Below are positions 8,622-22,605 of a DNA stretch of 22,605 nt, in pieces. The translations under genes and the position numbers were made by a program. Positions within the stretch are counted from its first letter, which is position 1. Each line of letters opens with the position of its first letter. Below the pieces are notes generated by a model. That model saw only the letters and a program-made list of their open reading frames with translations, had not been told where the DNA came from and made no database searches. Source of the stretch: a virus; the IMG/VR virus record IMGVR_UViG_3300027832_000115, positions 1-22,605 of that record; one strand, 5' to 3'.

Positions 8622-10858
8622 TATGATATCTCCAGTACGTGACCAAGAGCGGTCACATTTAGGCTCACAGTCCATGCAGCCATCGGGGTGATTGTTAGTT
8701 TGCGGTTAATGCCGTCACTGAAACGGTTAGCAAGGGGAATGTAAATAGGATCACCTGCTACCAATGGCCCTGGTACAGTGGCGTAATAAGAAGCGTTAGC
8801 CCCGTTACCTACAGTGAAACCAGTTGTGGTAGCAGCAGATGGAACAACAATAATCCCCTCAAAATAGTGTGATGCACTGTACAACGCCTGATTTACACCA
8901 GAGACGTATTGCAACTCGCTTGTAGCTGCCCAAGTATTCTTCCCTCTAATTTCAGGGCGTAGATTTTGCGGGTAGACAGTAGCACCACTTGCTGGCATAA
9001 GAGCGTGATTGTTATTAGCGCGGTCTAGTATCTGCCCTGTGTCGCTTTGGCAGTCCTCGGCGGAGAGGCTGGAAGCAATGAGGTTTTTGATAATCAAAAT
9101 ATCCGTAGCCTCGTACGGCCCACAATAAAGCTTGCCGTCTGCACCGGCAGCTATGCTAGTCCATTTATTCGAACCCGTTAGCGTTGCGCCCATAGCTGAG
9201 CGGGTAGCTGTACCCGCAACTGGATCAATAATCAAAATATCCGTAGCAGAGCGTGTCGCACAATACAGCTTGCCGTCTGCACCGGCAGCTATGCCATTCC
9301 ATTTAAATGTGCCCGTTAGCGTTGCACCCATAGCTGAACGAGAGGCCGTACCAGCAACTGGATCAATAATGAGAATATCCGTAGCGTTGAAAGGCGCACA
9401 ATAAAGTTTACCGTCAGCACCGGCGGCGATGCCCTGCCATTTAGATGAGCCCGTTAGCGTTGCACCCATGTCTGAGCGTGTAGCTGTTCCAGCAACTGGG
9501 TCAATAATGAGAATATCCGTAGCCTCGTAAGGCCCACAATAAAGTTTGCCGTCTGCACCAGCAGCTATGCTAGTCCATTTAAATGTGCCCGTTAGCGTTG
9601 CGCCCATATCTGAACGAGAGGCCGTACCAGCAACTGGATCAATAATGAGAATATTCGTATCGTTCAAAGGCGCACAATACAGCTTGCCGTCAGCACCAGC
9701 GGCAATGCCAATCCATTTAAATGTGCCCGTTAGCGTTGCACCCATGTCTGAGCGTGTAGCTGTTCCAGCAACTGGGTCAATAATGAGAATATCCGTAGCG
9801 TTGAAAGGCGCACAATACAGCTTGCCGTCAGCACCGGCAGCGATGCCATTCCACTTAGCCGAACCCGTTAGCGTTGCGCCCATGGCGGAGCGTGTAGCTG
9901 TTCCAGCAACTGGATCAATAATGAGAATATCCGTAGCGTCGTACGGCCCACAATAAAGCTTGCCGTCTGCACCGGCAGCTATGCCCGACCATTTATTCGA
10001 ACCCGTTAGCGTTGCGCCTATACCTGAGCGTGCCGAGTCTGCTATTTGCGTCCCATTGACAAGGGTGCTCAGTATTTCCGCCGGAGTTCGGTGCGACTTC
10101 CAAAGCTTGTAATACAAAAATACCGCGCTTTCGCTTACAGACGATGTGCCCAAAACAAATTTATTAGCCACGTTAGTGGTGTTAATCGGCGTCCCCGCAG
10201 TGACGCTAACTGTCGTGCCAATCTGCACGCCATTAACTGCAAAAACAATACCGCCCGCCGAACTTGCCGCTGGTATAAAGTAAGACCAGTCAAAAACTGT
10301 AAAATCGCCGTCGACAACCGAGACCGCCACAGTTGAGGTGTACGTTGTGGCGTTAAGCGTAAGGCGTAAAAAGCCGGTAGTCAGTAACTCAAAAATTACC
10401 CCCACAGACCCGTTGTGCTTGTTGCTTAGTTTAACTATTCCAGATGGCGTATAGTCAATCAGAGCAAGTGCCACTGTCTCACCACACGGCAAAGATGCGG
10501 AATCAATTCTGGAACTCGACAACTGTTGTATGCCCCGTTCACTACTGGACGATGTTCTAATCTGCACAGCGCGGGAAAGCGGGTTTGTGAACGTGGTTAC
10601 CGATGATATGTTCACTATCTCAGCAGCGCTGGCAGCACTGGCAGCAGAGGCATTAGCACTGCTAAGCGCTTCTGTGGCTTTACCTGTAGATATGCCCGCC
10701 TGAGTGGTTGCAATACCGGCCTGTGTAGTAGCGTCAACTGCCGCAGCTACCGCAGTGTCTTTTGACGCAGTGAAGCTATCCTTAACCGCTGTAACGGTTG
10801 TAAGCATCCCATCGGTATTAGCGACTAAGATAGCCAGTTGTTCGGCTGTTGTGGGCAT
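8621..10858 (-). CDS. Tail fibre with LamG-like domain and seven-repeat beta-propeller (745 aa)
   Basis: Start ATG 10858 (MPTTAEQLAILVANTDG) with GGAG upstream and a TAATG junction. Residues ~35-80 are an Ala/Thr coiled-coil stalk ('ATTQAGIATTQAGISTG') also seen in the 451-aa fibre. Residues ~95-275 resemble a LamG-like sandwich ('GIQQLSS', 'FLRLTLNATTY', 'FVLGTSS'). Then seven 46-residue repeats follow, consensus 'KWxGIAAGADGKLYC' plus 'ATDILIIDPVAGTATRS', predicted to fold as a seven-bladed propeller. The final ~125 residues start 'SSLSAEDCQSDTGQILD' and match the C-terminus of the next fibre. Repeat differences cluster after KW and after LYC, where binding loops would be exposed. Role inferred: receptor binding. 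Confidence 0.72.
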   Translation of the reverse strand: MPTTAEQLAILVANTDGMLTTVTAVKDSFTASKDTAVAAAVDATTQAGIATTQAGISTGKATEALSSANASAASAASAAEIVNISSVTTFTNPLSRAVQIRTSSSSERGIQQLSSSRIDSASLPCGETVALALIDYTPSGIVKLSNKHNGSVGVIFELLTTGFLRLTLNATTYTSTVAVSVVDGDFTVFDWSYFIPAASSAGGIVFAVNGVQIGTTVSVTAGTPINTTNVANKFVLGTSSVSESAVFLYYKLWKSHRTPAEILSTLVNGTQIADSARSGIGATLTGSNKWSGIAAGADGKLYCGPYDATDILIIDPVAGTATRSAMGATLTGSAKWNGIAAGADGKLYCAPFNATDILIIDPVAGTATRSDMGATLTGTFKWIGIAAGADGKLYCAPLNDTNILIIDPVAGTASRSDMGATLTGTFKWTSIAAGADGKLYCGPYEATDILIIDPVAGTATRSDMGATLTGSSKWQGIAAGADGKLYCAPFNATDILIIDPVAGTASRSAMGATLTGTFKWNGIAAGADGKLYCATRSATDILIIDPVAGTATRSAMGATLTGSNKWTSIAAGADGKLYCGPYEATDILIIKNLIASSLSAEDCQSDTGQILDRANNNHALMPASGATVYPQNLRPEIRGKNTWAATSELQYVSGVNQALYSASHYFEGIIVVPSAATTTGFTVGNGANASYYATVPGPLVAGDPIYIPLANRFSDGINRKLTITPMAAWTVSLNVTALGHVLEIS
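8979..9070 (-). repeat. Segment shared with 7039-7130 (start of common fibre C-terminal domain)
   Basis: Second copy of the 92-bp segment, located directly after the seventh propeller repeat. A hot spot of this kind is where receptor-binding modules could be swapped by recombination. Confidence 0.85.
9089..10015 (-). repeat. Seven tandem 138-bp repeats (46 aa each), the last one partial
   Basis: Starting at the Ala codon 10015-10013 and running leftward, seven units of 138 bp follow each other; the seventh stops after 33 residues and runs into the shared C-terminal domain. Invariant core: ATLTG..KW..IAAGADGKLYC, then T.ILIIDPVAGTA.RS.MG. Variable residues: the two after TG, the two after KW, and about five after LYC. 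Period was measured directly between 'CTTGCCGTCT' at 9131 and 9269. Confidence 0.9.
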
Positions 10859-20628: not shown

Positions 20629-20730
20629 GGCGGCAATGTATCACGCAGGTAACGCCGCTGTCTATCGGGTGTATGATGGCACACACATAGCTTGGGACGG
20701 GGAGGCCGTGGCTTAACTGGCGACTGACTG

Positions 20731-20856
20731 GCGGACTTCTTTATACACAAACAGTTTAACAGGCGGACTTCTTTATACCTAAACAGTTTAACAGGCGGAC
20801 TTCTTTATACCTAAACAGTTTAACAGGCGGACTTCTTTATACCTAAACAGTTTAAC
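20731..20856 (+). repeat. Four tandem 32-bp iteron-like repeats
   Basis: Units begin at 20731, 20763, 20795 and 20827, exact period 32, the last lacking 2 bases. Units 2-4 are identical and unit 1 differs at two bases (ACA for CCT at the middle). Each unit starts GCGGACTTCTTTATACC and contains the 11-bp palindrome TAAACAGTTTA. There are no spacers and no genes. It lies between the leftward late block and the rightward genes. Likely an iteron array for a replication initiator or an operator array for a regulator. Confidence 0.85.
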
Positions 20857-20923
20857 TGACAGGTAAGTTTGTGACAGGGATAGCTTAATTTTTGGGAAAT
20901 TTTATGCGCGTGACGGATAAAGA

Positions 20924-20968
20924 GGGGGGGAGGGGGTGGGGGGGTGTGGTGCCCTGTGGGGGGTGGGG
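20924..20968 (+). other. G-quadruplex-prone G-tract
   Basis: Runs of 7, 5, 7, 6 and 4 guanines on the plus strand are separated by A, T, a 13-base stretch and T. Nothing similar occurs elsewhere in the window. It lies between the iterons and the first leader cassette. Confidence 0.8.
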
Positions 20969-21023
20969 TGCCCACGTGCAGAGCACTCCTCTCCTTACTA
21001 CTATCACGCGGCAGGGCACTTAT
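20964..21023 (+). repeat. 60-bp block, copy 1 (59/60 identical to 22199-22258)
   Basis: Begins TGGGGTGCCCACGTG and ends GCAGGGCACTTAT. The only mismatch is C20988 versus A22223. It contains GTGC-AGA-GCAC and an outer GTGCCC/GGGCAC inverted pair, so it can form nested hairpins. Confidence 0.9.
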
Positions 21024-21036
21024 CCAGGCGTTTAAT

Positions 21037-21090
21037 TTGCCACTGTGCGATAATATACATGCTAGATAAAAAACTTACTTTAGGAAAAAG
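21037..21090 (+). promoter_or_regulatory. Leader cassette copy 1: altered promoter, leader and ribosome site
   Basis: TTGCCA (21037-21042) and GATAAT (21049-21054) match the -35 and -10 of copy 2, but only 6 bases separate them. The leader GCTAGATAAA...ACTTACTTTAGGAAAAAGATT precedes ATG 21094, with AGGA as ribosome site. A fallback pairing TTTAAT/TATACA with 17-bp spacing exists. Confidence 0.6.
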
Positions 21091-21093
21091 ATT

Positions 21094-21606
21094 ATGATTA
21101 GTGCTTTTCACGGCGTCGGGGCTTATAGGGGGCAGAGAAACCCAATAGCTCTAAGAAACGCGCTAGTCACCGCACTGAGCGGTGTCGAACTGTGTGTCGC
21201 GGACCGACCAATCGGCGCTTTTGGGGCGTTGCTGTTCGGGTACCACACCGCGACGTTTCAAGGTGACGTGTGGTCATACGTCATGCAGGACGGCACCCGC
21301 AACACACACAATTATTGCCCCGTTTTATCCGGGGATGTCGAACAACACGCCTACGAAGAAGCGTGTCGGCATGCACTAAAGGAGCGCGGCTCCGATAGAC
21401 AGTATTGTGAGTCGTGGGTTTCCTGCTCGACCGTTCGTGCCCTGTGGGTAAAAGCCTGGGCACCGGCGGCGACTAAAAAAGCGGCGGCAATAATGGCAAA
21501 AAACAGGGGCGTTCCCCTGCTAGAGATATCCGGCGCAACCCGCGTATGGGATGTGCTGGACAACGTCCGACTACCTTTTTCAGTGTGTGGAGCAAAAGCG
21601 GTATGA
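21094..21606 (+). CDS. Unknown protein, first rightward gene (170 aa)
   Basis: I do not recognise this protein. It is soluble-looking, rich in Ala, Cys and Trp, with 'GALLFGYHTATFQGDVWSYVMQDG' suggesting a beta sheet, then helices 'QHAYEEACRHALKERGSD' and 'AATKKAAAIMAKNRGVPLLE'. No catalytic motif stands out. The ATG follows AGGAAAAAGATT, the same leader as the right-edge gene. It overlaps the next gene by 4 nt, so the two products are made together. Its GC content and codon use do not obviously differ from the late genes. Probably an early or accessory gene. Confidence 0.7.
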   Translation: MISAFHGVGAYRGQRNPIALRNALVTALSGVELCVADRPIGAFGALLFGYHTATFQGDVWSYVMQDGTRNTHNYCPVLSGDVEQHAYEEACRHALKERGSDRQYCESWVSCSTVRALWVKAWAPAATKKAAAIMAKNRGVPLLEISGATRVWDVLDNVRLPFSVCGAKAV

Positions 21607-22127: not shown

Positions 22128-22198
22128 GGACGGAGTGCCAGCGCATGGAGCAACAGCTTTTCAACATAGTTTTTTCAGTTGCTGGGGTTTTGGGAGGA

Positions 22199-22258
22199 TG
22201 GGGTGCCCACGTGCAGAGCACTACTCTCCTTACTACTATCACGCGGCAGGGCACTTAT
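22199..22258 (+). repeat. 60-bp block, copy 2
   Basis: Partner of 20964-21023, located upstream of the promoter of the right-edge gene. The near-perfect identity 1.2 kb apart implies a recent duplication or gene conversion. Confidence 0.9.
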
Positions 22259-22273
22259 TCCGGTCGGAATAAG
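22254..22273 (+). promoter_or_regulatory. Palindromic operator candidate upstream of the right-edge promoter
   Basis: CTTATTCCG-GT-CGGAATAAG is a perfect 9+9 inverted repeat with a 2-base centre. It ends 21 bp before the -35 box. The 18-bp core recurs, inverted, at 22521-22538. Copy 1 of the cassette lacks it. Confidence 0.75.
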
Positions 22274-22294
22274 CTGAATATACAGGGGCTTAAT

Positions 22295-22323
22295 TTGACA
22301 CACCCATATGTACGTGAGATAAT
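22295..22323 (+). promoter_or_regulatory. Near-consensus sigma70 promoter of the right-edge gene
   Basis: TTGACA (22295-22300), 17-bp spacer, GATAAT (22318-22323). Predicted start near 22330, giving a ~46-nt leader with ACTT repeats and AGGA 8 nt before ATG 22376. Confidence 0.85.
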
Positions 22324-22375
22324 ATACAGGCTAGATAAAGAAACTCACTTACTTACTTACTTTAGGAAAAAGATT

Positions 22376-22605
22376 ATGAATACTTCCAATGTTGTTACGC
22401 CCGCTACTCTGCTGTCTCGTGATATTGCAGTGGCGAAGTTGTTAATAAACGCGGTGAATGCAGAAGTTTCCGCGTTTAACTTCACCCGTATGGCGGCGCT
22501 GTTATGCGCTAAAAAGCACGTTATTCCGACCGGAATAACGATTGCGCAACACAGCGAGCAAATAATGCTCGTCTACGGAAAAGACTTATCCAGCGCAAAT
22601 GTGAA
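22376..22605 (+). CDS. Unknown protein, cut by right edge (76 aa visible)
   Basis: ATG 22376 (MNTSNVVTPATLLSRDIAV) follows the same AGGAAAAAGATT ribosome site as the 170-aa gene. The visible part is helical ('DIAVAKLLINAVNAEVSAFNF', 'RMAALLCAKKHVI') with no motif I recognise. The second copy of the palindrome is inside its coding sequence at 22519-22540. The same frame is open upstream to ATG 22145 with no stop, so an N-terminally longer product cannot be excluded, though the promoter and leader evidence favours 22376. Confidence 0.65.
   Translation, partial: MNTSNVVTPATLLSRDIAVAKLLINAVNAEVSAFNFTRMAALLCAKKHVIPTGITIAQHSEQIMLVYGKDLSSANV
22519..22540 (+). promoter_or_regulatory. Palindromic operator candidate inside the right-edge gene
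   Basis: A perfect 10+10 inverted repeat with centre AC; its 18-bp core TTATTCCGACCGGAATAA is the exact reverse complement of the upstream operator core. Centre-to-centre distance to the first is 266 bp. Confidence 0.7.

Follow-up and report, generated by a model that had tools for sequence, protein, structure and literature searches.

A palindrome pair at a phage early promoter belongs to a putative family of dyad control sites dispersed over the early genes of related uncultured phages

What role might two matched palindromes play on either side of the first early promoter of an uncultured phage? The window analysed here (G000) is a virus record of 22.6 kb (22,605 nucleotides), in which genes for the terminase large subunit, the portal/head-tail adaptor and the major head protein lie on the minus strand and the right end is a short rightward early region. 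In this region the initial annotation had reported two 18-bp palindromes, exact reverse complements of each other and 266 bp apart centre to centre, and both were located as described (Table 1). Each consists of perfectly inverted 8-bp arms separated by a 2-bp centre (GT upstream, AC downstream), giving 8 of 9 matched pairs; the dyad extends to 9/10 pairs over 20 bp at the upstream site and to 10/11 pairs over 22 bp at the downstream site, with 248 nt between the arms. The pair is indeed unlikely to be fortuitous, as had been argued: about 0.005 exact inverted 18-bp pairs are expected anywhere in the window, and none of 100 dinucleotide shuffles gave a match. The downstream site lies about 145 nt after the ATG of a reading frame that opens at 22376 and runs past the window end, and encodes V-I-P-T-G-I. 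The contig stops at the right edge of the window, and the two copies visible in it are at that end.

The strong promoter claimed between the sites was likewise recovered: TTGACA (22295-22300) and GATAAT (22318-22323), separated by a 17-bp spacer, agree with the consensus at 11 of 12 positions. The upstream palindrome is centred at about -66 from the predicted transcription start and ends 22 bp before the -35 hexamer. Promoter and leader belong to a module of 110-180 bp that is a diverged duplicate of the one ahead of the preceding early gene, the palindrome being an extra segment in the second copy. A peptide search of IMG/VR found no relatives of that preceding gene (21094-21606), and there are none in 19 terminase-related records. 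The start of a small membrane-protein-like gene (MEQQLFNIVFSVAGVLGGWG, 22145-22195) runs into the duplicated module, which suggests that the module was copied into this gene. The ACTACTATCAY element upstream of the palindrome also occurs at 20998-21007, and relatives carry 2-7 copies per genome. Repeats of ACTTACTTACTTAC lie in the leaders directly 5′ of the Shine-Dalgarno sequence, both in the window (22347-22375) and at many early genes of relatives. The minus strand carries a signal resembling a terminator (22540-22519), probably an incidental one; the other palindrome has no T run, and we reject a terminator reading.

Table 1. Positions of the palindromes and neighbouring features in the window.
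Feature	Position	Strand	Basis
Promoter/leader module, first copy without palindrome, ahead of gene 21094-21606	20970..21093	+	duplication
Promoter/leader module, second copy with palindrome	22199..22378	+	duplication
ACTATCACGCGGCA with conserved element ACTACTATCAY, before the upstream palindrome	22235..22248 (ACTATCACGCGGCA); 22233-22242 (element)	+	conservation in relatives
Upstream operator-type palindrome TTATTCCGGTCGGAATAA = TTATTCCG-GT-CGGAATAA	22255..22272	.	same promoter-relative position in related genes
Sigma-70-type promoter TTGACA-17-GATAAT, TG before the -10 hexamer	22295..22323	+	sequence scan
Right-edge gene, 5′ part, conserved early family of about 200 aa	22376..22603	+	E=1.8e-5, sole match among 406 window frames
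In-gene operator-type palindrome TTATTCCG-AC-CGGAATAA	22521..22538	.	homologous position to relatives' in-gene palindromes

Eighty terminase relatives taken from IMG/VR place the pair in a wider setting. Upstream of their terminase genes, these relatives have in common a AAATTTTATGCGCGTGACGGATAA-like stretch, a G-rich run, ACTACTATCAY, a promoter and a ACTTACTT leader. Palindromes that match those of the window in register are present too, YTAATCCC-RY-GGGATTAR, with the related versions TTATTCCC, TTATTCCG (that of the window) and TTAACCCC. Most have TAATCCC-RY-GGGATTA; the form TTATTCCC-RY-GGGAATAA is found in L051, which bridges the majority class and the window class TTATTCCG, and in three other lineages, and TTAACCCC-AT-GGGGTTAA is found in G013/L048. 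The natural classes are TAATCCC, TATTCCC, TATTCCG and TAACCCC, and a hybrid site, TAATCCCACGGGAATA, occurs in G055. Copies with exact arms number 15 in G010 (within 12 kb), 10 in G006, 6 in G011 and 4 in L051; G014 has 9 perfect copies, or 11 if one mismatch is allowed, and the 59-61 kb contigs G050-G053 have between 6 and 10, clustered in the early block of each. Copy number in relatives is usually 6-15, the sites are confined to the early block, and a reversed control pattern gave no matches in the records where this control was run. The window pair is best described as two members of a putative control-site family that is dispersed over the early genes of related uncultured phages. The suggestion in the initial annotation of operators for a dimeric regulator, with plausible autoregulation by the right-edge gene, gains from the placement kept in relatives; the idea of a private pair does not survive. 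Since the sites are repeated up to 15 times over the early genes, a DNA-binding protein would probably switch the whole block.

The arms are invariant in nearly all genomes and behave in an almost all-or-none manner, and where classes differ the changes are symmetric and occur in both arms, as expected if the two half-sites contact identical subunits. All 239 distinct sites of multi-copy loci have a purine-pyrimidine centre (AT 88, AC 71, GT 65, GC 15), whereas singleton loci, which are mostly chance occurrences, have any centre (Fisher p about 1e-22). Because the scan left the centre free, this uniformity is an independent sign that the multi-copy sites are recognised as symmetric DNA. By a simple gene caller of our own, and therefore approximately, 73 of 86 sites in ten genomes are intergenic in an early block that is 77% coding. 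At many sites in relatives the TAA of the palindrome is the stop codon of the upstream gene, with the next start 10-50 nt downstream. The possibility of a common host repeat, raised against the operator idea at the outset, was checked within IMG/VR, where the TTATTCCG class recurs elsewhere solely in single copies that seem unrelated. Other contigs with the exact window 18-mer (L001, L002) or a 16-mer hold single copies, apparently by chance, and contigs with TATCACGCGGCAGGG are mostly unrelated coding DNA. The nearest cultured terminase relatives, Rollin and Hodr, have no palindromes (the Rollin record has runs of N); the right end of the window has no DNA similarity to cultured phages, and the exact majority palindrome had no match in the literature searched.

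Every genome in which the start of the early block is present encodes there a protein of about 200 aa, often flanked by palindromes, and the right-edge gene of the window belongs to this family. Among multi-copy contigs of 20 kb or longer the family is present in 5 of 7, as compared with 0 of 14 control contigs; the two that lack it are apparently fragmentary. Between ACTACTATCAY and the -35 hexamer most family loci have a palindrome that is either perfect or altered at 1-3 positions; across about 30 loci it usually lies about 108-135 nt before the ATG (-120 in the window). The distance from ACTACTATCAY to this palindrome is about 8-9, 18-20 or 26-29 nt, values that differ by close to full helical turns. 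At least four lineages (the window, G010/L084, L181 and G014/L027) have a further palindrome inside the gene, 119-147 nt from its start and at one shared position of the alignment. In G014/L027 it is read in another frame, encoding LIPRDY rather than VNPMGL or VIPTGI, and in the window it has another operator sequence than in relatives at a homologous codon position. That the in-gene site is kept in two frames and with different operator sequences argues for selection on the DNA and not on the protein, and this conserved placement is the strongest support for the putative operator function and for autoregulation. Searches with the family gave no convincing sequence relative in Pfam, PHROGs or the PDB and no recognisable DNA-binding domain, and two queries found no member in cultured phages. 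A confident AlphaFold model (pLDDT 85) had no fold match in the PDB; one match in BFVD is an uncultured phage protein. The family does share a conserved basic segment, KHxMRxAAKxVREDxGxGRxxGGGRKP, which could contact DNA. The early block also encodes a MoxR-like ATPase, a DUF2201 VWA protein and a DUF3150 protein, and one early protein of genome L109 (G006) matches the Acb2/Tad1 hairpin domain PF24729 (3.8e-16), which belongs to an anti-CBASS/anti-Thoeris sponge family.

The sites are perfect dyads, dispersed, confined to the early block, located at gene borders and conserved in their placement at the promoter. From this arrangement we infer that they are quite probably dyad operators of a sequence-specific dimeric regulator acting on the early block; this reading takes in putative binding by a protein, and putative repression in preference to activation. 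The window sites bracket the first early promoter and probably autoregulate it. A dimer on the upstream and in-gene sites would most likely block or limit this promoter, with shut-off by an in-gene road-block, by occlusion or by a loop, and bound sites at later gene borders would block or modulate the remainder of the early operon. The upstream site may possibly serve as an activator site, with centres at roughly -55 to -66 by our own estimate from promoter positions. By its position the right-edge gene product is the leading candidate for the regulator, an assignment to which we give a little less than an even chance. Against it count the lack of a recognisable DNA-binding domain and the different operator classes of close family members (L053 as against L254/L256), whose conserved basic segment has no obvious change. 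More tentatively, and on the unlikely side, the family may represent a hitherto undescribed kind of dimeric DNA-binding regulator, one that shuts down the early genes of virulent phages through dispersed palindromes, of which one sits at a fixed place within its own gene. For sites less than 450 bp apart, the pair spacings in relatives tend towards whole turns of 10.5 bp (R=0.28, nominal p=0.007, the pairs not being independent), which hints at looping there. At 25.3 turns the window pair misses whole-turn phasing by about one third of a turn, so that looping is no more than a possibility in the window.

The regulator could instead be a host protein, with the four site classes reflecting different hosts. 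The TAATCCC arm is identical throughout phages whose right-edge proteins are often only about 25% identical, and no phage helix-turn-helix repressor is conserved (HTH_3 was above the cut-off in 2 of 17 records). This reading is nevertheless rather unlikely in our estimate, given that the sites are confined to the early block and positionally conserved around one phage gene, and that classes differ between phages with close right-edge proteins. That the palindromes act in mRNA, as hairpins close to the starts and ends of genes that serve in processing, stability or the control of translation, is improbable. Both sites of the window form good RNA folds (-9.0 and -11.5 kcal/mol), the overlap with stop codons shortly ahead of the next start would suit such a role, and there is a slight strand asymmetry (centre AC 33 vs GT 16, with a C/T bias at the outer base). 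The upstream copy in the window, however, precedes the promoter and so would fall outside its transcript; the TAATCCC hairpin shows no clear gain in stability over shuffled sequences (z -1.25), few tolerated G-U variants occur in arms that are nearly all-or-none, and a set of purine-pyrimidine centres that is closed under reverse complement points to DNA.

The remaining readings were rejected. A promoter enclosed by exact inverted repeats, each with an asymmetric 2-bp centre, is reminiscent of serine-invertase sites, and 22255-22538 might flip as an inverton that switches the promoter. Up to 15 copies in relatives, many with a symmetric AT centre, would then cause deletions, the flip would break the gene, and no serine recombinase or resolvase (PF00239, 11 records) and no tyrosine-type integrase (PF00589, 17 records) was found in relatives, some of whose contigs may be incomplete; we consider this very improbable. 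Much the same low probability attaches to partition sites of the parS or KorB kind for a ParB-type protein: the palindromes are dispersed, and KorB both partitions and represses, but these palindromes are tied to gene borders, and ParB_N (PF02195) was absent from 15 records of relatives, again from contigs that may be incomplete. A coincidence of chance or of coding for VIPTGIT has next to no probability. The unrelated contig L001 does have the same 18-mer in a sequence coding for VIPTGIT; against this stand the low chance expectation for the window and the conservation of both positions across the family, which already contradict such a reading.

With many near-identical sites per genome, placed at the gene borders of one region, the palindromes resemble dispersed operator arrays. 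The conserved inverted repeats (CIRs) of the temperate phage phiC31, which are bound by the c repressor, are also near-perfect and found at many loci, mostly between early genes; they differ in having a presumably different sequence, a known repressor and a temperate phage. Auxiliary operators of the lac/gal type pair one operator at the promoter with one in coding sequence and can repress by looping, whereas the window pair has a spacing of 25.3 turns and is part of a larger array. The 15-bp motif SPBRE of the temperate prophage SPbeta, repeated at many intergenic and promoter regions, was first seen in silico and later found to be the operator of the phage master repressor MrpR, which has an unusual tyrosine-recombinase fold (PMC10516654). 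The element described here is similarly repeated at many intergenic sites but is a dyad of 16-18 bp whose arms are perfect, in phages in which no integrase was found. The stoperators of Cluster A mycobacteriophages (L5, Bxb1) are asymmetric, have one predominant orientation and serve lysogenic immunity (PMC6550527). Like them, the present sites are short, numerous over one part of the genome and mostly off promoters, and fall into classes that vary between phages; unlike them, they are symmetric dyads with perfect arms in phages that show no sign of lysogeny. Perfect-arm dyads, natural classes with symmetric changes and the lack of detected lysogeny genes set this putative array apart from the known systems. 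Peptide searches of a one-genome-per-species collection found no prophage relatives.

The dispersed operator arrays known so far come mainly from temperate phages, in which their role is to enforce immunity. When such an array is conserved in phages that have no detectable lysogeny genes, this suggests either a lytic, genome-wide early shut-off or a hidden lysogeny without integration. With several natural operator classes available, the specificity of the binder is directly testable, and the short palindrome is a marker of this uncultured phage group in metagenomes.

Several other features of the window deserve mention. Between the terminase genes and the early promoter lie four tandem 32-bp repeats (GGCGGACTTCTTTATACCTAAACAGTTTAACA, 97% alike, 20730-20856), which are iteron-like and perhaps mark an origin. 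At 20895-20950, AAATTTTATGCGCGTGACGGATAA followed by G-runs, conserved across relatives upstream of the small terminase gene, is a candidate packaging (cos/pac) site. A perfect palindrome inside a tail-protein gene, GGTTCCACGTGGAACC (1331-1346), is one base from the bacterial ParB site parS (TGTTCCACGTGGAACC). A gene in the tail region contains 6.8 copies of a 138-bp repeat (9090-10032), the unit of which encodes GADGKLYCGP..TDILIIDPVAGTATRS.
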